Part shown: positions 5,987 to 27,962 of the stretch, in pieces
Numbering within the stretch: the first letter of the stretch is position 1
Layout: each line of letters begins with the position of its first letter
Origin: Euzebyales bacterium
Lineage (GTDB): Bacteria; Actinomycetota; Nitriliruptoria; Euzebyales; JAHELV01
Direction of reading: 5' to 3'
Length of the DNA: 37,646 nucleotides
Assembly: GCA_036374135.1 (NCBI GenBank)
Contig: DASUUK010000062.1
Location: 1-37,646, forward strand
Notes under the pieces: model-generated
The model's database searches: none
Told to the model about the DNA's origin: nothing
What the model saw: only the letters and a program-made list of their open reading frames with translations
Program-made: the position numbers and the translations under genes

Positions 5987-6631
5987 TCACCCGCGCAGGT
6001 ACAACAGGACAGCGAGCACCCGCTTGGAGTCGCTGCCGGTAGATGGGAGGTCGAGCTTCGTGAAGATGCTGGAGACGTACTTCTCGACCGCCCGCAGCGT
6101 GATGACGAACTCGTCCGCGATTCCCTGGTTGGACCTCCCCTCGGCCATCAGCGCAAGGACTTCGCGCTCCCGCGGCGTCAGGCCTGACAGCGGGTCGGCC
6201 GTGCGCTGTTTGGCGATCAACGCCGAGACGATCGTCGGGTCGATGGCCGACCCGCCGTTGGCGACCCGTCGGACCGAGTCGATGAAGTCCGCGACGTTGC
6301 TCACGCGGTCCTTCAGCAGGTAGCCGACGCCCTCGGCGTCGTCCCCGAGCAGCCGCATCGCGAGGCCGACCTCGACGTACTGGGACAGCACGAGCACACT
6401 CACGCGGGGATGTTGCGCGCGGATCGCCAGCGCGCCCCGCATGCCTTCGTCGGTGTGCGTCGGGGGCAGCCGGATGTCGACGATCGCAGCATCGGGTTGG
6501 TCGCGGTCGACGAGCGCCTGCAGCTTCTCAGCGGTGTCGCAGGTGCCGGTGACCTCGACACCGTGCTCGGTGAGCAGGCGAACCAGACCCTCGCGCAGGA
6601 GCACGGAGTCCTCGGCGATCACGGTGCGCAC
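5987..6631 (-). CDS. NarL/LuxR-family response regulator
   Basis: This 214-residue protein has a receiver domain with acidic pocket Glu7-Asp8, phosphoacceptor Asp52 (AIVDIRLPP), and Lys107 (YLLKDRV). A LuxR-type HTH follows (LTPREREVLALMAEGRSNQGIADEF, then AVEKYVSSIFTKLDL), about residues 149-210. It is the output partner of the adjoining histidine kinase: the GTG start at 6631 overlaps the kinase 3' end by 13 bases and has GGAG five bases upstream. NarL/DosR/DesR-type regulators of this layout respond to membrane, redox or gas signals; the signal here is unknown. A palindrome follows the stop. Confidence 0.93.
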   Translation of the reverse strand: MRTVIAEDSVLLREGLVRLLTEHGVEVTGTCDTAEKLQALVDRDQPDAAIVDIRLPPTHTDEGMRGALAIRAQHPRVSVLVLSQYVEVGLAMRLLGDDAEGVGYLLKDRVSNVADFIDSVRRVANGGSAIDPTIVSALIAKQRTADPLSGLTPREREVLALMAEGRSNQGIADEFVITLRAVEKYVSSIFTKLDLPSTGSDSKRVLAVLLYLRG

Positions 6632-8403
6632 GGGATCTCCGCACGCATACGCGTGCCGTGATCGCGGGTGCTCCAGACCCGCAGTCGTCCTCCGAGCGCC
6701 TCCATCCGGTCGGCGAGGCCTCGGAGCCCCGTGCCGTGGTCCGTGGTGGCACCGCCCACGCCGTCGTCGGACACCTCCACGCGCAGCACGCCCGGGCCGC
6801 GGTCCAGCCTGACGACCGCGGCGGACGCACCGGCGTGCTTGGCGATGTTCGCCAGCGCCTCGGACACCATGAAGAACGCCGCCAGCTCCACCGGTTCCGG
6901 CAGGCGCCCGTTGACCGAACCGTCGATGCGCACGGGCACCGTGGCATGCGTGGCGAGCGACTCCAGCGCCACCATCAGCCCGTGGTCGCTGACCAGCGCC
7001 GGATGGATGCCATGCGCGAGATCGCGGAGGTCGGCGAGGCTGGCCGAGACCTCGGCGCGGGCGTCGTCGATCCGCCTGCGCAGATCCCGGTCGACCACGA
7101 CCTCCGCCATCTCGCCGAGCTCGAGCGCCAGCGCTACCAACCGCTGCTGCGCGCCGTCGTGCAGATCGCGTTCCAGTCGGCGCCGCTCCAGCCGCTCGGC
7201 CTGGAGAATGCGTGCACGGGATCCGCGCAGCTCCTCGAGGCGCGCACGCAGCTCGACCTGCAGCTGGGCATTGTGGATCGTCATGCCGATCGCGGCTGCC
7301 ACGGACGACAGCACCTCGGGTTCGTCGTCGAGGGCGGCGTCGTGGAACAGCATCGCCACCGGCGTGCCGTCGCGGACGATCGGCATCGCCGACCGGCCGG
7401 GCGACGGTTCGACGTCAACCTCGTGGCCGTCGATGTCGGCGTACGCGTCGAACTCCTCGACCCGGTATGCAAGCGTGGCCGACGGGTCCCGCAGCGCTCT
7501 GGCCACCGCGTGCTGCAACTCCGCCGGACCCGGGTTGACGCCGAGGTCCACGAAGAGATCAGCGACCGACGCACGGCCGAGGTGGGACGCCAGCAGGCCG
7601 ACGAGGAACACGATCGGCGCGATCCCGATCACGGCGAACGTCATCTGGCGGACCGTGTCCTGGATCGCGTGCCACTGGAAGAAGCCGGCCAGCAGCAGCA
7701 GCGCGATCATCAGCAGGCCGAGGGAGAACGCGTCGACCAGCAGCCCGAGGGCCGTCCGCGACGGTCGGCCCGTGCGGCGGCGGCGCGCGAGCACAGCGAT
7801 GCCGGCCAACGAGAGGGTGCTTATGATCAGGAGCTGCGCCCGCTGGAGGACCTGAGCGATCGCCGGCGCCGCGATGACCGCGACGACGTTGCGGGGGGAT
7901 TCCTGAGCGAGCGCGAGCGCGGGGATCGTGAGCGCGGCCGCGCCGTAGGCCGCCGCGACGACGACCCGCTCCGGCCGGGACACCAGCCGACCGGTCGGGA
8001 AGGCCAGGAACACGTGGAGGAACAGCACGGGGGGCAGGAACTGGGCCGCGACGCCGAGCGTGAACAGCCCGTCGTTGTTGGACCAGACCAGGAAGCCGAG
8101 GAAGCTGGCGAACCCGGCCGCGACCATCAGCATCCCGAGCCGGCTGTCGGGCCGCCTCCGCCACGCGACGAGTCCCGCCACGATGTACGGGATGGTGATC
8201 CAGTACGCCAGCGCGGCGTGCAGTCCCGGCTGCGGCAACTCGGTGTTGGCGTCGGCGAGCACCAGCAGCACGACGCCGGACAGCGCGCCGGCGGCGGCGA
8301 GCACGACGACGGTCCACCGGCCCGGCGCGGCGCCGGTCCAGTGCTCAGATGCAACAGACGACGCAAGCGTGCCCATGGGCGCATCCGATCTCGCCAAGCC
8401 CAT
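6619..8403 (-). CDS. Membrane sensor histidine kinase, HisKA_3 type
   Basis: The N-terminal 250 or so residues form about seven to eight hydrophobic helices (for example WTVVVLAAAGALSGVVLLVL and IAPIVFLVGLLASHLG). A GAF-like linker follows, then a HisKA_3 dimerisation helix with ERDLHDGAQQRLVAL, phosphoacceptor His415, and an HATPase_c domain with N-box EALANIAKHA and G-boxes DDGVGG and GTGLRGLADRM. Kinases of this type pair with NarL-type regulators, and the next gene is one, with a 13-base overlap. The start is uncertain: the frame opens at 8427, ATGs lie at 8403 and 8376, and none has a clear ribosome site. I chose 8403. The sensing part is probably the membrane domain, as in DesK-like kinases. 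Confidence 0.88.
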   Translation of the reverse strand: MGLARSDAPMGTLASSVASEHWTGAAPGRWTVVVLAAAGALSGVVLLVLADANTELPQPGLHAALAYWITIPYIVAGLVAWRRRPDSRLGMLMVAAGFASFLGFLVWSNNDGLFTLGVAAQFLPPVLFLHVFLAFPTGRLVSRPERVVVAAAYGAAALTIPALALAQESPRNVVAVIAAPAIAQVLQRAQLLIISTLSLAGIAVLARRRRTGRPSRTALGLLVDAFSLGLLMIALLLLAGFFQWHAIQDTVRQMTFAVIGIAPIVFLVGLLASHLGRASVADLFVDLGVNPGPAELQHAVARALRDPSATLAYRVEEFDAYADIDGHEVDVEPSPGRSAMPIVRDGTPVAMLFHDAALDDEPEVLSSVAAAIGMTIHNAQLQVELRARLEELRGSRARILQAERLERRRLERDLHDGAQQRLVALALELGEMAEVVVDRDLRRRIDDARAEVSASLADLRDLAHGIHPALVSDHGLMVALESLATHATVPVRIDGSVNGRLPEPVELAAFFMVSEALANIAKHAGASAAVVRLDRGPGVLRVEVSDDGVGGATTDHGTGLRGLADRMEALGGRLRVWSTRDHGTRMRAEIPCAP

Positions 8404-8503
8404 GTACCGGCGATCCCGACGGCACACGTGGAGCGATCGGGAAACGCCGCATCCCCAGCGTGATCGGTTCGGGGCCGCGGCGCAAGGCCGACGTTCGGGC
8501 CAT

Positions 8504-13473: not shown

Positions 13474-16179
13474 TCACGTGCGCTCGGCGCCGCCCAGCGC
13501 GCGGACGACCGCCTTGCGCGCCTCCTCGACGACCAGGATGCTCACGGCGACACCGGCGGCCAGGCCCCACTGGGCGGGGGTCAACGCCGTCGTGTCGAAG
13601 ATCGCCTGCATGAACGGGACGTGCACGGCGGCGACCTGCAGAACCACCACCGCCGCCAGCGCCCACAGCAGCCGGTGGTTGGCCAGGCTGTGGCGGCGCA
13701 GCGCCGTCGTCACGTCATCACGTGAGTTGAACGCGTTCGCCACCTGGTACAGCACGAAGGTCGTGAAGGCCAGCGTCCCCGCGACCGTGTCGTCGCCAAC
13801 GGTCAGGCCGTACCGCAGCATGCCCAGCGTGCCGATCGCCATGGCCGCCCCGAGCAGCAGCAGGTGCGACACCCGCCGCACGTCGAGCACCCGCGCGTCG
13901 GGGTCCCGCGGCGGGCGTTCCATGACGTCCGGGTCCGGCGGATCGACACCCAGCGCCAGCGCGGGTGGGCCGTCCATGATCAGGTTGACCCACAGGATCT
14001 GGATCGCCGTGAACGGTGCGGGAAGCCCGATGACCTGCGCGAACAGGATCGTGATGATCGCACCGAAGTTCGTCGACAGCTGGAACCGGACGAAGTTGAC
14101 GATGTTGTCGTAGATGGCGCGGCCGCGTTCGACGGCGTTGACGATGGTCGCGAAGTTGTCGTCGGTCAGGACCATCTGACCGGCCTCCTTGGCGACGTCG
14201 GTGCCGCTGCGACCCATGGCCACGCCGATGTGCGCGGCGTGCATCGCCGCGGCGTCGTTGACGCCGTCCCCGGTCATCGCGACGATCTCACCCTCGTGGC
14301 GCAGCGCCTCGACGATGCGGACCTTGTGCTGCGGGCTGACCCGGGCGAACACGCCCGCCCGCTCGACCACCTCGTAGAGCTCCTCGTCGCCGAGACCGTC
14401 GATCTCACGACCCTCGACGGCCTCCGGCGGGATGCCGAGGTCGTCCGCGATCGCCGCCGCAGTGACCTTGTGGTCCCCCGTGATCATCTTGACGGCGATC
14501 CCCGCCGTCACACAGCGGTCGATCGCCTCGTCGGCCTCCCGACGGGCCGGGTCGACGATGCCGACGACCGCCTGCAGGTGCAGGTCGCGCACGTGGTCGA
14601 CAAGGTCGTCCTCCAGCGCGTCGGGGTCCACCGGGGCGTCGAGCGCGCGGGACGCCACGGCCAGCACACGGCGACCCTGTCGTGACAGTGCGTCGACCTG
14701 CTCGTCGATGCGCGCGCGGACCTCGTCGGACAGGTCCTCGCGACCGTCGGCGCCCCACCACGTGACGCACCAGTCCAGCAGCACGCTGGGCGCACCCTTG
14801 ACCAGCACGACCGGCTCGTCGTCGTCCAGCGTGTGAAACGTCGCCATGTACTTGCGGGACGAGTCGAAGGCGATGGCGTTGTCGCGTGGGTAGCGCTGGC
14901 GGGCATCGTCGGGGTCGATGCCGGCCTTCATACCGATGACCAGCAGCGCGCCCTCGGTCGGCTCGCCCTCCAGCTCGCCGTCGCCCGAGATCTCGGCGTC
15001 CGAGCACAGCACGACCGGCAGCAGCACGTCGCGCGCCTGCGGCAGTTGCTCACCGTCGTCGCCGATCGACCCCTCGGGCTCGTACCCCTCGCCCGAGACG
15101 TGCCAGGTGCGGCCGTGGGTCACCAGCTCCCGGGCGGTCATCTGGTTGAGCGTCAGCGTGCCGGTCTTGTCGGTGCAGATCACCGTCGTCGACCCGAGCG
15201 TCTCGACGCTGGCCAACCGCTTGACGATGGCGTTGCGGCGCGCCATCTGGTTCATCCCAACCGCCAGCGTGACGGTGACCACCGCCGGAAGTCCCTCCGG
15301 GATCGCCGCGACAGCCAACGCGATGGCCTCCAGCGCCGTTTCGCCGAGGTCGTCGCCCTGCACGATGCCGAGCACGAACACCAGGGCGCACGCCACGACG
15401 GCGACGATCGCGAGCACCGTCGTGACGCGGCTGAGCTGCTGCTGCAACGGCGTCTGCCCACCGTCGCCTTCGCGCAGCCGCGCTGCGATGCGCCCGACCT
15501 CGGTGCCCATGCCCGTCTCGGTGACGACCATCTCGGCCCGGCCACGGGCAACGGTCGTGTTCATGTACAGGCTGTTGGACCGATCGGCCAACGCGGCGTC
15601 GGCATCCACAGGATCGACCGCCTTGTCGACCGCGGTGGACTCCCCGGTGAGTGCCGACTCCTCCACGGACACGCCGCGCGCGGAGATCAGGCGACCGTCG
15701 GCGGGGACGCGATCGCCCGAGCTGAGGAGCACGACGTCACCCGGCACGAGGTCGGCGCCATCGACAGCCTGCTCCTGACCGTCACGCCGCACCTGCGCGT
15801 TGAACGTCAGCATCGAGCGCAACGAGGACATCGACGACTGCGCCTGCTGCTCCTGGTAGAAACCGATGCCCGCGTTGAGCAGCAGCACGACGCCGATGAC
15901 GATGGGATCCTTGACGTCTCCGACCAGGCCCGCGACCACCGCCGCGACCAGCAGGATCAGCACGAGCGGGTCCGCGAACTGCTGTGCGAGCAGCCTCCAC
16001 CACGGCGTGTCCTCGGACTTCTCGATCACGTTCGCGCCGTATTCGGCACGCCGCCGCTCGACGTCGTCGGCATCCAGGCCCGTCTGGGGGTCGACGTCGA
16101 GCCGCTCGACCGTGCCCGCGACGTCGAGCGCATGCCACGGGCCTGCCTCGCGGTCCTCGGTGGTGACAGCGTCGCTCAT
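13474..16179 (-). CDS. P-type cation ATPase, PacL/CtpF (calcium pump) type
   Basis: From the ATG at 16179 (AGAAGG ten bases upstream) this is a 901-residue P2-type ATPase. In order: N-terminal cation ATPase domain (GLDADDVERRRAEYGANVIE), ALTGEST, M4 PEGLPAVVTVTLAVG, phosphorylation motif DKTGTLTLNQM with Asp337, MTGDGVNDAAAMHAAHIGVAMG, and M6 NLIMDGPPALALGVD. The C-terminal four helices end near LVVEEARKAVVRAL. The PEGL and NLIMD segments form the Ca2+ site in SERCA/PMCA-type pumps, so calcium or a similar ion is likely. In mycobacteria the related ctpF is a DosR-regulated gene. It is 477 bases from nirK on the same strand, with a hairpin between them, so it is probably a separate unit. Confidence 0.9.
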   Translation of the reverse strand: MSDAVTTEDREAGPWHALDVAGTVERLDVDPQTGLDADDVERRRAEYGANVIEKSEDTPWWRLLAQQFADPLVLILLVAAVVAGLVGDVKDPIVIGVVLLLNAGIGFYQEQQAQSSMSSLRSMLTFNAQVRRDGQEQAVDGADLVPGDVVLLSSGDRVPADGRLISARGVSVEESALTGESTAVDKAVDPVDADAALADRSNSLYMNTTVARGRAEMVVTETGMGTEVGRIAARLREGDGGQTPLQQQLSRVTTVLAIVAVVACALVFVLGIVQGDDLGETALEAIALAVAAIPEGLPAVVTVTLAVGMNQMARRNAIVKRLASVETLGSTTVICTDKTGTLTLNQMTARELVTHGRTWHVSGEGYEPEGSIGDDGEQLPQARDVLLPVVLCSDAEISGDGELEGEPTEGALLVIGMKAGIDPDDARQRYPRDNAIAFDSSRKYMATFHTLDDDEPVVLVKGAPSVLLDWCVTWWGADGREDLSDEVRARIDEQVDALSRQGRRVLAVASRALDAPVDPDALEDDLVDHVRDLHLQAVVGIVDPARREADEAIDRCVTAGIAVKMITGDHKVTAAAIADDLGIPPEAVEGREIDGLGDEELYEVVERAGVFARVSPQHKVRIVEALRHEGEIVAMTGDGVNDAAAMHAAHIGVAMGRSGTDVAKEAGQMVLTDDNFATIVNAVERGRAIYDNIVNFVRFQLSTNFGAIITILFAQVIGLPAPFTAIQILWVNLIMDGPPALALGVDPPDPDVMERPPRDPDARVLDVRRVSHLLLLGAAMAIGTLGMLRYGLTVGDDTVAGTLAFTTFVLYQVANAFNSRDDVTTALRRHSLANHRLLWALAAVVVLQVAAVHVPFMQAIFDTTALTPAQWGLAAGVAVSILVVEEARKAVVRALGGAERT

Positions 16180-16656
16180 GTCGGGTGGGCCTTCTGGGCG
16201 CAGGGATGGGTCGCAGTTCACGATTCTGACGCCACGACGCGACTGCGCATCCGCGGCGCCCCCGTTCCTCACCCGCGACGGGGTTCGTCACACGCTCCCG
16301 CGACCACGCACCGTCACGGACGGCCGGCTCTACCCTTGGGTCATCGCACAGGGTCGGCTGACCCCTCGGCACGTTGCCGCCGCAGCCCTCGAGCTCGAAC
16401 CGGACGAGGATCGCAACGACCTGGCCTTCGCCGTGCGCGTGGGCGCATTCGACGGCAGGCGCCCGGACGCCTCGCCCACGCGGCCACGTGAGGTCTCCGA
16501 GGCCACCAACAGGCGACAGCACCTGCGCATGCGATGCGGGCGACCTCGGATCGACGGGGTCGTCGGCCCACCATGGGTCGCCGCTGACGGGCGGGGGCGA
16601 TGGTTCGAGCACCCTCGGTTCGTAGCCGGCGCCCAGGCCGTAGCTGGGCGCTTCTG
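16180..16656. other. Gene-free gap between nirK and the P-type ATPase
   Basis: No frame here looks like a protein on either strand. It holds the nirK hairpin at 16629-16651, an inverted repeat GGGTCA / TGACCC at 16338-16343 and 16359-16364, and a short CCCCGT / ACGGGG pair near 16265-16290. The promoter of the ATPase gene should lie here on the minus strand, but I cannot pick it out. Confidence 0.5.
16629..16651 (-). terminator. Hairpin downstream of nirK
   Basis: GCGCCCA (16629-16635) and TGGGCGC (16645-16651) are perfect seven-base complements around a nine-base loop. They start six bases after the nirK stop on the minus strand. No T run follows, as is common in GC-rich actinomycetes. Confidence 0.45.
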
Positions 16657-18279
16657 CTACTCGGTGACGATCACCTTGGCGCGCATCCATGGGTGGGGGG
16701 TGCAGAAGTACTCGAACTCCCCGGGCTCGGTGAACGTGTACGACCACGACTGCCCAGGACCCAGGAGGCCGGAGTTGAACGACTCGTCGGCGGCGGTGAC
16801 CGTGTGGACCACGCCGGCCTCGTCGTTGGTCCAGGTCACCGTGTCGCCGACAGAGACCTCGAGCACGTTGACCGAGTAATCGCCCGGATTCTCGGCGTCG
16901 GCGAACTCGTCTGTGGCGCCCTCTTCCTGGAAGGTGCTGGACCCGGCCACGATCGACACCTGCGCCGTGTCGCCCGCTGCGGCATCGGCCTCCGGTTGCG
17001 GCGATGGCTCGACCGGCGGAGCGCTCGCCCCGAGATCTCCAGCGTCGGCAGGTGTGACCTCCTCGAAGATCTCGGCGTCGTCGTCGCCGCTGATCACGAT
17101 CTGACCGATCGCGCCCTTGTCGAACGCCCGCGCCAGCGCGTGGTCGACGAGCACGACGGTCATCGGCACCTGGCCCTGGAGCTCGACGACGGTGCCCCCT
17201 CCCGCGGGAACCAGCGTCGTCTGCGAACCCCGCAACGGCGCGTTCAGCAGTGCGGCCTCGGGATAGACGGTGTCCCAGTGGGAGCCGATCGGGTGGAAGT
17301 TCGACGTCAGGTTCAGCCCCGCGTTGACGAAGTAGATGCGACCGCGCTCCCCCACGGCCATCTGGAGGGCGTTGTCGTCGGTCAGCGCGCCCACGGCGCC
17401 GTTGAACACCACGTGCGTGGGGTCTTCATCGGTCACGGCGGTGCGGTCGAGCTGTCTGGTGTCGTCGTCGGCCGTGTAGTACTCGGACTGCACGACGTAC
17501 CACTCGTGGTCCACGGCGGGCAGCGGCGTCGCAGGATCGACCAGGATCCCGCCGGACATGCCGTGGGCGATGTGCGCGGGGACGTCACCGTAGGCGCAGT
17601 GGTACATGAAGAACCCGGGGTACAGCAGGCGCGCCTCGATCGTGCGGGTCTCGCCGGGGTTGACGGTGGTCGCCTCCGCGCCGCCGCCCTGCCCGGTGAC
17701 CGCGTGGAAGTCGACGTTGTGGGGATTGCGGTTGCCGTCGGGGTTGATGATCGTGAACCGCAGCACGTCGCCGACCCGGGCCCGGACCGCCGGGCCGGGC
17801 GTGCCGACCACGAGACCGTCGGGGCCGTCGACGAGCCGGTACCCCCAGGTTTCGTGCCGCGTACCACCGGCCGGATCGATCGTCGAGACGTTCTCGACGA
17901 CCTCGAACGTCACGTCCACGATCGCCTGCTCGGTACGGTCCGCGCGCGGTGGCATCTCGGGTGCCACCGCGACGTTGGACTCGTCGTCGGGCACTGGCGA
18001 CAGATCCGCCTTGGGCGTCAGCTCCGGGATGACGCCGCCGGCGGACGTCGCCTCGCCGGTCTCCGCCGCGGTCGCGGGCTGCTGCGACTCGACTCGGGCG
18101 TCGCTGACGAGCTGTTGGTACTCATCGCGCAGGTCGCGGGCGATCAGCACGCCGCCGATCTGGTTGGCGACCACCAGGACGAGCAACCCGGCGACCGCGA
18201 CCATGATGAGCGCAAGACCTCGTGTCCAGGGACCGGGTTGCTGTCCGAGGGTCCCGCCCGTGTGTGTCTGCCCTGCCAT
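16657..18279 (-). CDS. nirK: Membrane-anchored copper nitrite reductase (AniA type) fused to a C-terminal cupredoxin
   Basis: This 540-residue enzyme should reduce nitrite to nitric oxide outside the membrane. A helix at about residues 22-48 anchors it, then comes a Pro/Glu-rich linker. The NirK core keeps HNVDFH (His187 type 1, catalytic Asp190, His192 type 2), YHCAYGDVPAHIAHGM (His227 type 2; Cys228, His236, Met241 type 1), SNFHPIG (His329, catalytic) and LVDHAL (His380, type 2). The Cys-to-His and Cys-to-Met spacings (8 and 13) match Neisseria AniA, not the classic one-residue-longer loop. A plastocyanin-like domain (about 450-540) adds its own site: His492, Cys526, His529, Met532; it could feed electrons to the core. 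The ATG at 18279 has GGAGG nine bases upstream. An NsrR-like gene precedes it by 18 bases. Confidence 0.9.
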   Translation of the reverse strand: MAGQTHTGGTLGQQPGPWTRGLALIMVAVAGLLVLVVANQIGGVLIARDLRDEYQQLVSDARVESQQPATAAETGEATSAGGVIPELTPKADLSPVPDDESNVAVAPEMPPRADRTEQAIVDVTFEVVENVSTIDPAGGTRHETWGYRLVDGPDGLVVGTPGPAVRARVGDVLRFTIINPDGNRNPHNVDFHAVTGQGGGAEATTVNPGETRTIEARLLYPGFFMYHCAYGDVPAHIAHGMSGGILVDPATPLPAVDHEWYVVQSEYYTADDDTRQLDRTAVTDEDPTHVVFNGAVGALTDDNALQMAVGERGRIYFVNAGLNLTSNFHPIGSHWDTVYPEAALLNAPLRGSQTTLVPAGGGTVVELQGQVPMTVVLVDHALARAFDKGAIGQIVISGDDDAEIFEEVTPADAGDLGASAPPVEPSPQPEADAAAGDTAQVSIVAGSSTFQEEGATDEFADAENPGDYSVNVLEVSVGDTVTWTNDEAGVVHTVTAADESFNSGLLGPGQSWSYTFTEPGEFEYFCTPHPWMRAKVIVTE

Positions 18280-18297
18280 TGTCATCACCCTCCGCGC

Positions 18298-18699
18298 TCA
18301 CTGGTGCACCGCCGACAGGACCGGCGTCGCGGCCAGGCGGCCCGTCAGCGCGTCACGCGCGGGAAGCCAGGCGTCGTGCACGGCGCACGGCAGTTCCGCC
18401 GGGCACGGCTGAGGTCGCAGCACACAACGGCCGGTCTCTACCGGCCCCTCCACGGCCTCGATCAATTCCAGCACCGATACGTCGACCGCGAACCCGGTCG
18501 CCTGGTAGCCACCGCGCGGACCCGGGACCGACCGCACCCATCCGGCACGCGACAGCGGTGCGATCACCTGACTGAGGAACGCCGTCGTCGTGTCGAGCGC
18601 GTCCGCCAGGTCACTGCCTTTGTGCAGCCCACCGCTGTCGACCAGCACACGCAGTGCCCGCAGCGCGAGGTCCGTCTTGCGCGTCAGCTCCAATCTCAT
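18298..18699 (-). CDS. nsrR: Rrf2-family regulator, NsrR-like nitric-oxide sensor
   Basis: This 133-residue protein has the Rrf2 winged helix: TRKTDLALRALRVL, then LADALDTTTAFLSQVIAPL (recognition helix) and the wing GPRGGYQ. Cysteines 92, 99 and 105 (C-x6-C-x5-C) sit where NsrR and IscR bind an iron-sulfur cluster. Asp10, in the TDLALR segment, lines up with Asp8 of Streptomyces NsrR, a known fourth cluster ligand. NsrR releases DNA when nitric oxide hits the cluster. The gene lies 18 bases upstream of nirK on the same strand, so it likely controls the enzyme that makes NO. An inverted repeat sits seven bases before its ATG. RsrR- or IscR-like sensing is the alternative. Confidence 0.85.
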   Translation of the reverse strand: MRLELTRKTDLALRALRVLVDSGGLHKGSDLADALDTTTAFLSQVIAPLSRAGWVRSVPGPRGGYQATGFAVDVSVLELIEAVEGPVETGRCVLRPQPCPAELPCAVHDAWLPARDALTGRLAATPVLSAVHQ

Positions 18700-18706
18700 A
18701 GTCGTA

Positions 18707-18719
18707 GAGTCATCGACTC
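18707..18719 (-). promoter_or_regulatory. Inverted repeat at the nsrR-nirK start, operator candidate
   Basis: GAGTC-ATC-GACTC is a perfect inverted repeat whose edge is seven bases upstream of the nsrR ATG. The position would cover the transcription start of a short-leader or leaderless message. Autorepression by the NsrR-like protein is inferred. Confidence 0.35.
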
Positions 18720-19230
18720 AACAACTGGGCGAACGAGGCGAACGTCCCGGAATCGCCGGGACCTTCCGCGAGGGCGACGCCGCCGGCCGGTGCCGGCGGC
18801 GTCGACCGCGGGTCGCGGTGTGGTGAACAGCGGCCCGTACAGGCGCACGGTCAGCCACCCGATCGCCCCGTGAAGCCGCAGAAGACCGCGTGAGCAGCAA
18901 CGGGAAGAACCGTTCGTTGTTGCCCGGCAGCTGTAGGTACTCCTGGCCGACGATCAGCTGGGCGTACATGTACACGGCCCACAGCGCCGGCGCGAGCGCG
19001 ACCACGGGTCCGGCGCGGTGCCCACGCCACAGCAGCACGCCGGCCGCGAGCGCGGTCGGCGCGACCACCACCAGCCCCGCCAGATCGCCGCCCATGACCT
19101 GGTTGAGCGTGGTGTCAGACGTGCGATAGCGCAGCACATCGAACACGAGCGGACCGAGCATGCTGGCGACCGCGACGCCCACACCGAGCGCCGCGACGAG
19201 CAGTGCAGTCGTCCTGCGGTATCCGGACAT
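18718..19230 (-). CDS. Small integral membrane protein with abnormal 3' end
   Basis: The first 113 or so residues look genuine: a helix (ALLVAALGVGVAVASMLG), TLNQVMGGDLAGLVVVAPTAL, LLWRGHRAGPVVALAPALWAVYMYAQLIV and LPGNNERFFPLLL, four-helix character in all. I have a general recollection of such proteins in actinomycetes but no function. The ATG at 19230 has GGGAGG five bases away. After LLL the frame turns into an arginine/serine-rich tail that runs through two strong hairpins (18775-18804, 18744-18762) to a TGA at 18718, inside the nsrR promoter. A one-residue frame change would stop at 18851, before the hairpins. I take the tail as a product of a frameshift near 18885; the true end is uncertain. 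Confidence 0.55.
   Translation of the reverse strand: MSGYRRTTALLVAALGVGVAVASMLGPLVFDVLRYRTSDTTLNQVMGGDLAGLVVVAPTALAAGVLLWRGHRAGPVVALAPALWAVYMYAQLIVGQEYLQLPGNNERFFPLLLTRSSAASRGDRVADRAPVRAAVHHTATRGRRRRHRPAASPSRKVPAIPGRSPRSPSC
18744..18762. promoter_or_regulatory. Inverted repeat GTCCCGG-N5-CCGGGAC upstream of nsrR
   Basis: Seven-base arms, 18744-18750 and 18756-18762, flank five bases, centred about 55 bases before the nsrR start. It may be an operator, or a second terminator arm after the hairpin at 18775-18804. Confidence 0.35.
18775..18804 (-). terminator. Thirteen-base-pair GC hairpin, probable terminator of the membrane-protein gene
   Basis: The stem 18775-18787 pairs perfectly with 18792-18804 (arms beginning CGACGCCGCC) around a CGGT loop. 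It is the strongest hairpin I see in the window. It lies on the minus strand after the conserved part of the membrane-protein gene and before the nsrR-nirK promoter. Confidence 0.5.
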
Positions 19231-25473: not shown

Positions 25474-25886
25474 TCGCCGAAGGCGGCCATGGCGATGCGT
25501 TCCACGACCGCAACCCGCGACCAGGCGACCGGCACTCCTGCTGCCGGCAGGCACGCAGGTGAGGAGATCCGGCGACCGCTGCCTCGATGGCCTCACCGCT
25601 CCGACGTAGCCATCGCGCATCAGCCTGACGTCCGGTCCCATGGTCAATGAGGGCGATGGTCAGGTGGCCTGACATGACCATTGACCTGACCCGGGTCACT
25701 GGCTGACAATCCGCGTCGACACGTACGCGAGGTTCCCGGTCACCTGGAGGATCTCGGGAGCGAAAGCGCGGAGCGGGCACGCGCACGGCCCGTCGGCGCT
25801 CTGCGTTCCCCGGTGGCCGCCGGCCTCACGCTGGCCCGCCATGGCCTGCCGTGGTATGGCCTGCCCACAGCGGAATGGGGAGCACC
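25474..25886. other. Gene-free gap upstream of the multicopper oxidase
   Basis: I see no convincing gene on either strand. It opens with small hairpins (CGCC-GAA-GGCG at 25475-25485) that may end the ABC operon. The middle holds the GGTCA repeat cluster at 25642-25698. The last 190 bases run to the oxidase start without a clear -35/-10 pair. Confidence 0.5.
25642..25698. promoter_or_regulatory. Cluster of GGTCA/TGACC inverted repeats upstream of the multicopper oxidase
   Basis: Three perfect inverted repeats fall in 57 bases. GGTCAATG (25642-25649) pairs with CATTGACC (25679-25686). ATGGTCA (25656-25662) pairs with TGACCAT (25675-25681), nested inside. TGACCCGGGTCA (25687-25698) is a 12-base palindrome. 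All share the GGTCA half-site. The cluster is about 190 bases before the oxidase start, a place for an operator; the regulator is unknown. Confidence 0.45.
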
Positions 25887-27962
25887 ATGCTGACTCGGCG
25901 GCAGTTCCTGCGATCAGGCGCGTACTCGACAGCGGCGGTGATGGTCGCGCCCGGGTTGATGATGAAGATCGGGCCCAGCGGGCCGGTGCTGTTCCAGATC
26001 CCCGGCGGGAGCCTGGCGCCCGGCGACGTGGCCAAGTATGCGCTGCCGCTCGTGAAGCCGCCGGCCATGCCGCTCAGCAAGGGCTCCAACAGGAACAGGG
26101 ACTTCTACCGGATCGGCGTGCGCCAGTTCCGGCAGCGGATCCTGTCTCCGCCGCATCCGGCGACCACCGTGTGGAGCTACGGGTCCGTGGACTTCCCCGG
26201 CCCGGCGGTCGACCCTGACACTGGTTCACTGACCGGCGGGACCTTCAACTACCCGGCCTTCACGATCGAGGCCACCGCCAACAAGCGCACGCAGGTGTTG
26301 TGGCGCAACGAGCTGGTCGACCAGAACAACAACTTCCTGCCACACCTGTTGCCGATCGACCAGACCCTGCACTGGGCCAACCCACCGGGCGGCCTTGACG
26401 GCCGCGACACGCGGCCGACGAACCCGAGCCAGGCGCCGTACATGGGCCCGGTGCCGCTCGTCACACACGTGCACGGCGCCCACACCGGCGAGGACAGTGA
26501 CGGCTACGCGGAAGCCTGGTACCTGCCGAACGCCGCGAACATCCCAGCCGGGTACGCGACGACGGGGTCATTCTACGACTACTACAACACGAAGTACGCC
26601 CACGACTGGGCACCGGGCACGGCATCGTTCATGTACCCGAACGACCAGCCGGCGGCGACACTGTGGTACCACGACCACACGCTGGGCATGACCCGCAACA
26701 ACGTGTATGCGGGGCCGGCAGGGTTCTGGTTGATCCGGGGCGGACCCTACGAGAAGGATCTGGGTTACGTCGCAGCGGGGGTCGGGGACAGCCCGCTCGG
26801 CAAGTACACCGAGATCCCGATCGCGATCCAGGACCGGTCGTTCAATGCCGACGGATCGCTGTTCTATCCGGACAACCGCGCGTTCTTCGAGGGGCTCAAC
26901 CCGGCGCAGCTGCAGATCCCGTTCATCCCTGACGAGGCCTGCGATGGACTGCCCAGCGACGTGTCGCCGATCTGGAACCCCGAGTTCTTCGGCAACATGA
27001 TCGTCGTCAACGGCTTCACGTGGCCGTTCCTCGAGGTGGAGCGACGGCGCTACCGGTTCCGCTTCCTCAACGGCTGCAACTCGCGGTTCCTCGTCCTGAA
27101 GCTGACGACCTCGCCTCGGACGGACAACGGCGGATTCAACACGCCCGAGTTCTCGTTCTGGCAGATCGGGGCGGAGCAGGGCTTCCTCCCAGCGCCGGTC
27201 GAGCTCGACCACCTGCTGATGGGGCCTGCCGAGCGTGCAGACGTGATCGTCGACTTCACCGACATTCCGGTGGGCACCGAGGTGTACCTGGTCAACGACG
27301 GACCCGATGCACCGTTCGGCGGCATCTCGCTCGAGGACCTGTCGGACTGGGAGTCGACCGGTCAGGTGATGAAGTTCATCGTCACGGCTGCGACAAGCAC
27401 GGACAACACCATGCCGCCCGGCCAACTGGTGCTCCCGGCGCAACCGGTGCTGCCGCCGAAGACCGCCACGCGGCAGTTGTCCCTCAATGAGGAGGAGTCG
27501 GCATCCGTCCGGGTCAGCGAGGACGATCAGGACAACATCGTGCTCGACTGCTCGAACGGCGAGGTCTTCGGGCCGACGGCGGCGCTGCTGGGGACACTGA
27601 ACCCCGATGGCAGCGGCAACCCGTTGCTGTGGAGCGATCTCATCACCGAGAACCCGGCGCTCGGCGCGGTCGAAGTGTGGGAGCTGCACAACTTCACCGT
27701 CGACGCCCATCCGATCCACATCCATCAGGTCAAGTTCAAGGTCCTCGGGCGTGGATCAGACGGCATGCAGGCCCCCGAGCGATCGGAGACCGGATTCAAG
27801 GACACGGTGATCGCCTACCCGGGCGAGGTCACGCGCGTGAAGGCGCAGTACGACCTGCCGGGCTTCTACGTGTGGCACTGCCACATCGTGGAGCACGAGG
27901 ACAACGAGATGATGCGCCCGTTCCACGTCGGACCGATCCCGCCGGACGCACCGGCGCAGTAG
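25887..27962 (+). CDS. Multicopper oxidase, CotA/bilirubin-oxidase-like, with Tat-type signal
   Basis: This 691-residue exported enzyme should oxidise phenols, bilirubin-like compounds or metals with four coppers. The start is MLTRRQFLRSG, a twin-arginine-type signal with a weak hydrophobic core. All four copper motifs are intact: HVH (His194, His196), YHDH (His262, His264), HPIHIH (His608, 611, 613) and WHCHIVEHEDNEMM (His664, Cys665, His666, then His and axial Met). The long insertions and the GFNTPEFSFWQIGAEQGFLP-type segment fit the CotA/phenoxazinone-synthase branch rather than small laccases. The ATG at 25887 follows GGGGAG. No neighbour reveals its substrate; GGTCA palindromes lie upstream. 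Confidence 0.92.
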   Translation: MLTRRQFLRSGAYSTAAVMVAPGLMMKIGPSGPVLFQIPGGSLAPGDVAKYALPLVKPPAMPLSKGSNRNRDFYRIGVRQFRQRILSPPHPATTVWSYGSVDFPGPAVDPDTGSLTGGTFNYPAFTIEATANKRTQVLWRNELVDQNNNFLPHLLPIDQTLHWANPPGGLDGRDTRPTNPSQAPYMGPVPLVTHVHGAHTGEDSDGYAEAWYLPNAANIPAGYATTGSFYDYYNTKYAHDWAPGTASFMYPNDQPAATLWYHDHTLGMTRNNVYAGPAGFWLIRGGPYEKDLGYVAAGVGDSPLGKYTEIPIAIQDRSFNADGSLFYPDNRAFFEGLNPAQLQIPFIPDEACDGLPSDVSPIWNPEFFGNMIVVNGFTWPFLEVERRRYRFRFLNGCNSRFLVLKLTTSPRTDNGGFNTPEFSFWQIGAEQGFLPAPVELDHLLMGPAERADVIVDFTDIPVGTEVYLVNDGPDAPFGGISLEDLSDWESTGQVMKFIVTAATSTDNTMPPGQLVLPAQPVLPPKTATRQLSLNEEESASVRVSEDDQDNIVLDCSNGEVFGPTAALLGTLNPDGSGNPLLWSDLITENPALGAVEVWELHNFTVDAHPIHIHQVKFKVLGRGSDGMQAPERSETGFKDTVIAYPGEVTRVKAQYDLPGFYVWHCHIVEHEDNEMMRPFHVGPIPPDAPAQ

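Follow-up and report, generated by a model that had tools for sequence, protein, structure and literature searches.

An rrf2-nirK operon encoding a predicted membrane-anchored copper nitrite reductase with a C-terminal cupredoxin

The DNA analysed here, a stretch of 37,646 nucleotides referred to as the window, contains a two-gene operon in which a gene for an Rrf2-family regulator precedes nirK, whose product combines an AniA-type copper nitrite reductase core with an N-terminal membrane anchor and a C-terminal cupredoxin. Two conserved DNA sites, a 27-bp palindrome and a box resembling those of DevR and OsdR, lie upstream of rrf2. It is fairly probable, taking the proposal as a whole, that this operon provides an anchored, self-fed nitrite reductase that is repressed by Rrf2 at the palindrome and receives an additional hypoxia input of the DevR/OsdR type. 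Each part of the unit is already of a known kind. The combination of the parts with the two conserved DNA sites appears to be undescribed, and no description of the fused architecture in Nitriliruptor or Acidimicrobiia was found in open-access papers.

The nitrite reductase and its added domains

The nirK gene (16657..18288, minus strand) encodes 543 amino acids when translated from GTG 18288, with ATG 18285 or ATG 18279 as alternative starts. Residue numbering in the initial annotation began at ATG 18279 and is three residues off, so that its positions 492, 526, 529 and 532 are H495, C529, H532 and M535 here. Residues 109-412 match the Cu_nitrite_red model TIGR02376 with 280.7 bits, the curated cut-off being slightly higher (296.3), and form a two-domain core (17053..17964, minus strand). 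The ligands of the type 1 (T1) copper, H190/C231/H239/M244, and of the type 2 (T2) copper, H195/H230/H383, can be read directly in this core as a complete set, as initially claimed, together with the catalytic residues AspCAT (D193) and HisCAT (H332). The T1 loop, CAYGDVPAH, has the C-x7-H spacing of AniA (CAVAPVGMH) and not the C-x8-H spacing of class I, in accord with the short Cys-to-His distance reported at first. The predicted core (AF2) superimposes on AniA (5UE6) with a Z score of 42.5 and an rmsd of 1.8 over 309 residues. In an alignment of 24 fused homologues, the ligands of all three copper sites and the catalytic residues are invariant, which argues that the architecture is not due to chance. 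Residues and fold agree in identifying the core as an AniA-type (class II) copper nitrite reductase, with nitrite reduction as its predicted activity.

The core is followed by a flexible linker of variable length in the alignment (16969..17040, minus strand; aa ~417-440) and by an amicyanin-type cupredoxin (16660..16968, minus strand). Residues 471-541 of the latter match PF00127 with 50.8 bits, and the domain reaches 64.5 bits with the amicyanin model TIGR02657, the cut-off of which is 110.2. A second complete T1 site had been assigned to this domain, and all four of its ligands (H495/C529/H532/M535) are indeed present on direct reading and invariant in the 24 homologues from two phyla. An AF2 model built from a 37-sequence alignment (pLDDT 89.8, pTM 0.72) supersedes an earlier, poor one built from 24 sequences (pLDDT 72.6, pTM 0.55). 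Its sole disordered part is the linker, where pLDDT falls under 50 (model residues 335-351, aa 420-436); in the cupredoxin, from aa ~471, pLDDT is mostly above 90. Two solved proteins, TsNirK (6HBE) and a Nitrosopumilus oxidase (9CCK), align to the model across three domains with an rmsd of 21 A, which means that the same domains are placed differently; any docking of the tail onto its core is putative. The initial annotation called the enzyme self-wired. Its C-terminal T1 site is present, but the linker is predicted to be disordered and the docking seen in TsNirK is not reproduced by the model; it is reasonable to suppose that the C-terminal copper feeds the core.

The N-terminus is predicted by AF2 to be one long helix (aa 20-68), of which aa 20-48 (18145..18231, minus strand) would serve as a membrane anchor, and a hydropathy peak begins at aa 19. 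Helix and peak bear out the anchor in the initial annotation. Its location on the 'cell surface' needs rewording, since relatives suggest a single-membrane actinobacterium, for which the outer face of the cytoplasmic membrane fits better. The anchor segment is 48-58% identical to that of N-terminally cupredoxin-fused NirKs in other members of the order, the cores of which belong to a different clade from the window core. Among 41 genomes a single further match was seen, weak (33%, E 4e-4) and situated within or immediately ahead of another NirK-like stretch of G005, and in relatives the homologous anchor is found only on NirK-type proteins. It has the character of a mobile module (window 18061-18234, minus strand; G013:C96, G026:C67, G009:C16, G010:C6) shared by C- and N-terminally cupredoxin-fused NirKs of the order. 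Other members of the window NirK family carry lipobox-like starts in place of the anchor helix, and membrane attachment is thus a common trait that is reached by different routes. Long open frames at two loci (L036 and L037) resemble N-terminal extensions, which were rejected as the likely starts yield a lipobox-like signal instead.

The Rrf2 regulator and its control region

The rrf2 gene (18298..18699, minus strand) encodes a 133-aa member of the Rrf2 family (PF02082, 82.7 bits). It is separated from nirK by 18 bases if the latter starts at ATG 18279, as in the initial description of a two-gene unit, and by 9 if it starts at GTG 18288; that the two genes form one operon is upheld. Three cysteines, C92, C99 and C105, are invariant in 19 homologues. 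His108, in an IscR-like C-x2-H arrangement, is found in 18 of them, and the three-cysteine-plus-histidine ligand set of IscR is thus present, whereas position 10 is less conserved (13 Asp, 5 Glu, 1 Ser). The fourth ligand, D10 or H108, would set the type of cluster. Streptomyces NsrR (5n07) shares an identical TDLALR and a similar cysteine spacing with the window protein. The NCBIfam models for NsrR (24.4 bits against a cut-off of 182) and IscR (48.6 against 207.55) are not reached, and the SUF-regulator model gives 48.9 bits, far under its cut-off. Of the original assignment to NsrR, the Rrf2 fold, the three cysteines and Asp10 stand; the low NsrR score, the better conservation of His108 than of Asp10 and a different operator speak against the name. 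The protein, the sole full-length Rrf2 match in the genome, is an Rrf2 regulator with a probable Fe-S cluster, best left without a subfamily name. Rrf2 genes of the same kind adjoin NirKs of another clade, with a Gln axial ligand, at four loci (L041, L042, L044, L047), where the 27-bp palindrome is absent from the rrf2 start. An Rrf2 gene (L061:1939-2364, minus strand) also lies ~3.5 kb from a TsNirK-like gene in the denitrification cluster of a Thermus plasmid.

The initial annotation had placed a control region within 18690-18770, and a conserved 27-bp palindrome, AGTN5AGTN5ACTN5ACT, does lie there (18700..18726), abutting the rrf2 start codon. It touches the start codon in the window and at six other loci (L033, L004, L019, L020, L010, L008) and is one base off in L011; weaker forms occur slightly farther upstream of rrf2 in L015 and L022. 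A weight matrix built from the eight sites scores 28-37 bits at those sites, against a background ceiling of ~13 bits in 532,504 positions, apart from the sites themselves, overlapping shifts, L015, L022 and L018. At the palindrome threshold, shuffled sequences give at most one region as compared with five real ones. L018, which was not used to train the matrix, keeps the palindrome (L018:7678-7704) upstream of nirK in a locus that lacks rrf2. An operator abutting nirK itself was considered for L018 and discarded, the nirK ATG being ~105 bases farther on, beyond a short out-of-frame stretch; a short frame after this operator, VKLRIIFHTDRAQR, resembles an rrf2 remnant and may be one. The palindrome was not found at the two Chloroflexi loci, although rrf2 is present there. 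Judging from position and conservation, it is a probable autoregulatory Rrf2 operator; it differs from the published NsrR consensus gATGyAT-N5-ATrCATc (PMC1274295).

The perfect palindrome occurs once in the genome, and no further perfect match was found. A site with one mismatch on C47 turned out to be an unrelated palindrome close to another regulator's gene. Lower-scoring matches are outnumbered by those of a reversed control, and accordingly no wider Rrf2 regulon was found in the genome. For an open frame of 170 aa upstream of rrf2 (18718-19230, minus strand), neither a Pfam match nor any clear counterpart among the relatives was obtained. Its hydrophobic segment possibly runs on in a different frame around 18890, which would point to a frameshift or to an end that overlaps the control region without coding. 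Scans for sigma-70 promoters and terminators found nothing.

Farther upstream, a 14-mer (18735..18748) at -49 from the rrf2 start, centred near -42, matches 7 of the 8 core bases of a DevR/OsdR-like box and is a degenerate copy. In the upstream regions of rrf2, the pattern GGGNCN4GNCCC gives the best match in all 12, with 10 of the matches falling between -48 and -53; eight regions have it within the tested stretch, compared with a mean of 0.7 and a maximum of 5 after shuffling. The same box directly precedes nirK at three loci (L005, L006, L024). A stricter pattern has 74 matches in 11 genomes as against 14 for the reversed-pattern control, and several of the sites precede genes for Usp, pyridoxamine-oxidase-like proteins and pyridine-nucleotide oxidoreductases. 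OsdR has a published 16-bp consensus, AGGGCCGATCGGCCCT, a site AGGGACCTTCGGCCCC at -53 of narG2, and targets that include Usp and pyridoxamine-oxidase genes, as given in PMC5069765; consensus, site and targets all agree closely with the box and the genes behind it. The window copy scores no better than the best chance matches in the window and stands out through the relatives alone. The box before rrf2 is thus read as DevR/OsdR-like from its sequence, clearly in relatives and more weakly in the window.

No DevR protein was identified in the window genome. A NarL-type response regulator and a HisKA_3 kinase with no recognised sensor domain are encoded ~8 kb from nirK (5987-8427, minus strand); they were rejected as a DevR/DevS pair, the response regulator being of the generic NarL type and the kinase giving no GAF hits. 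A calcium-type P-type ATPase gene adjoins nirK in the window (13474-16272, minus strand) and in two Acidimicrobiia (L005:9693-12521 and L006:9621-12419). The gene for a related transporter, ctpF, is part of the mycobacterial DosR regulon.

Occurrence, metabolic setting and proposed mechanism

A scan of one genome per species yielded 28 loci, and a search of relatives added more; the NirK core with a C-terminal cupredoxin recurs at ~25 loci. The 24 aligned fused proteins come from Nitriliruptorales, Acidimicrobiia, Ilumatobacter, Salsipaludibacter albus and two Chloroflexi. Matches spanning core and tail are found in 9 of 396 sampled Actinomycetota genomes, which makes the fused architecture uncommon but recurrent. 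Its only widely conserved neighbour is rrf2, present at 13 of 26 loci in two phyla. At 12 of these it lies directly upstream of nirK, and at one (L023) it is downstream and convergent; among the 13 loci with no adjacent rrf2, several end at a contig edge. In the core tree, the window family forms one clade (100/99). In a different family within the same class, an AniA-like NirK (L039:1072-2589), which has a two-domain neighbour (L038), ends in a cupredoxin of another, plastocyanin-like kind (CSIPGHRAMM). Placing this protein in one clade with the window family is rejected by the tree (p = 0.00016), and it thus represents a further independent C-terminal fusion.

The draft genome is 96% complete. 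It encodes three haem-copper oxidases, each of which carries the oxygen-reductase motif HPxVY, and flavodiiron-type matches are weak; no NO reductase, NarG, NosZ or globin was found in it. If this absence is correct, nitrite has an external source and the pathway ends with NO, in which case a purely product-induced loop would be potentially hazardous and a hypoxia input becomes more plausible. A 703-aa multicopper oxidase similar to O-aminophenol oxidase and CueO is encoded ~7 kb from nirK (25851-27962, plus strand).

In the mechanism proposed here, the N-terminal helix anchors NirK with the domains on the outer side of the cytoplasmic membrane, where the enzyme would reduce nitrite to NO. Provided that its sites are loaded with copper, an external donor would pass electrons to the C-terminal amicyanin-type copper and from there to the core T1 copper, which would reduce the T2 copper over the Cys231-His230 bridge, with Asp193 and His332 giving protons. 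Rrf2, with a probable Fe-S cluster on C92, C99 and C105 plus D10 or H108, would bind the palindrome at its own start codon and repress both rrf2 and nirK. Loss or change of the cluster would lift repression, the signal most likely being NO and possibly oxygen, iron or nitrite. The DevR/OsdR-type box ~42 bp upstream would add activation under low oxygen in relatives and, more weakly, in the window.

The part played by the tail can be seen otherwise. The cupredoxin might have a structural or gating role or serve for the docking of an external donor, with a soluble cupredoxin or cytochrome feeding the core T1 copper directly; the predicted flexibility of the linker and at least two separate small cupredoxins in the genome (C36, C42) are consistent with this, and tethered domains in RpNiR and HdNiR do more than simple donation (PMC13324648; PMC6400189). 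However, a purely structural domain would not need T1 ligands, and the invariance of all four in 24 homologues from two phyla counts against an exclusively structural role, so that we regard this alternative as unlikely. Equally, the tail need not be a separate acquisition if one ancient, C-terminally extended NirK lineage embraces Thermus, Crenothrix and Fraserbacteria, in which case the window protein would simply belong to the TsNirK group. An amicyanin-like T1 copper at the C-terminus is common to the two (PMC6400189), and the three-domain alignment of the model to 6HBE points the same way. On the other hand, Thermus NirK has a Gln axial ligand and SerCAT (PMC6400189), and in T. thermophilus NirK (L061) Gln and Ser likewise take the place of the Met (M244) and Asp (D193) of the window family. 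Two-domain and haem-fused NirKs fall between the two groups in the core tree, and a single clade is weakly rejected (p = 0.02), a test weakened by the long Thermus branch. A common lineage is accordingly quite improbable, and the C-terminal fusions of the two families are likely to be independent, as these residues and the tree suggest.

As for the regulator, Rrf2 could be a sensor of the IscR or iron/redox type that makes nirK responsive to Fe-S status or oxygen, in which case the enzyme's product would have no control over the repressor. The higher scores with the IscR (48.6) and SUF-regulator (48.9) models than with that of NsrR (24.4), the IscR-like C-x2-H with His108 in 18 of 19 homologues and an operator unlike the NsrR consensus (PMC1274295) favour such a sensor, whereas TDLALR with Asp10 as in Streptomyces NsrR, a position beside nirK that recalls the original NsrR case as cited in PMC1274295 and the lack of a second full-length Rrf2 in the genome argue for the NO-responsive repressor preferred here; we consider the IscR-type sensor possible but doubtful. 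It is also conceivable, if very improbable and frankly speculative, that the operon of the preferred mechanism acts as an NO-making switch. The anchored NirK would then belong to a low-oxygen dormancy regulon and be released by its own product via the Fe-S repressor, in a host in which neither NO reductase nor flavohaemoglobin was detected, with NO serving as a signal or for electron disposal rather than for denitrification.

The window NirK would be the second, apparently independent NirK with its own C-terminal copper carrier. Its core is of class II and has the usual catalytic residues, and together with TsNirK and RpNiR it would offer a test case for the role of tethered domains. Through this operon, copper nitrite reduction in Actinobacteria and Chloroflexi that have received little study is tied to an Rrf2 sensor, a candidate operator and a dormancy-type hypoxia box. 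Palindrome and box are short DNA targets and are directly testable.

Relation to known systems

The closest known architecture is that of TsNirK from Thermus scotoductus (6HBE), a three-copper NirK of known structure that ends in an amicyanin-like T1 domain, which contradicts the earlier statement that known NirK fusions carry cytochrome c or an N-terminal cupredoxin. In TsNirK 14 A separate the C-terminal T1 copper from that of the core, and the electron order T1CuC to T1CuN to T2Cu has been proposed by its authors (PMC6400189). The window NirK shares with it the succession of core and C-terminal T1 domain, and three coppers per subunit are expected. TsNirK has a Gln-ligated core T1 site, SerCAT and a tail docked on its own core (PMC6400189), whereas the window NirK has Met, AspCAT and a linker predicted to be disordered, begins with a membrane helix, is paired with rrf2 and branches separately in the tree.

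AniA, the class II NirK of Neisseria (1KBV, 5UE6), resembles the window core in fold (the Z score given above), sequence (~43% identity), C-x7-H spacing and catalytic residues, but has no cupredoxin at its C-terminus and has been assigned to the outer membrane (PMC4770552). In the class II-like RpNiR and PhNiR (3ZIY, 2ZOO), an AniA-like core also bears a C-terminally tethered electron carrier, which is haem c and not a T1 copper domain. An extra cupredoxin is found in HdNiR and in actinobacterial N-cupredoxin NirKs (2DV6; PMC4770552), although at the opposite end of the protein; the N-fused NirKs of the order have the homologous anchor, while actinobacterial N-fused cores belong to another clade. 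The Nitrosopumilus maritimus oxidase (9CCK) likewise consists of a copper core and a C-terminal cupredoxin and aligns over three domains, but is only 24% identical and is deposited as a multicopper oxidase.

With respect to regulation, NsrR was first described as the nirK repressor of Nitrosomonas europaea (cited in PMC1274295), so that the pairing of an Rrf2-type regulator with a copper nitrite reductase gene is not new as such. The window Rrf2 differs from this NsrR in its operator, in a score far under the cut-off of the NsrR model and in the possible His108 ligand. The dormancy regulons of OsdR in Streptomyces and DevR in Mycobacterium offer a similar box, with the near-identical site AGGGACCTTCGGCCCC and sites at Usp and pyridoxamine-oxidase genes; nirK is not among the OsdR targets considered here (PMC5069765).
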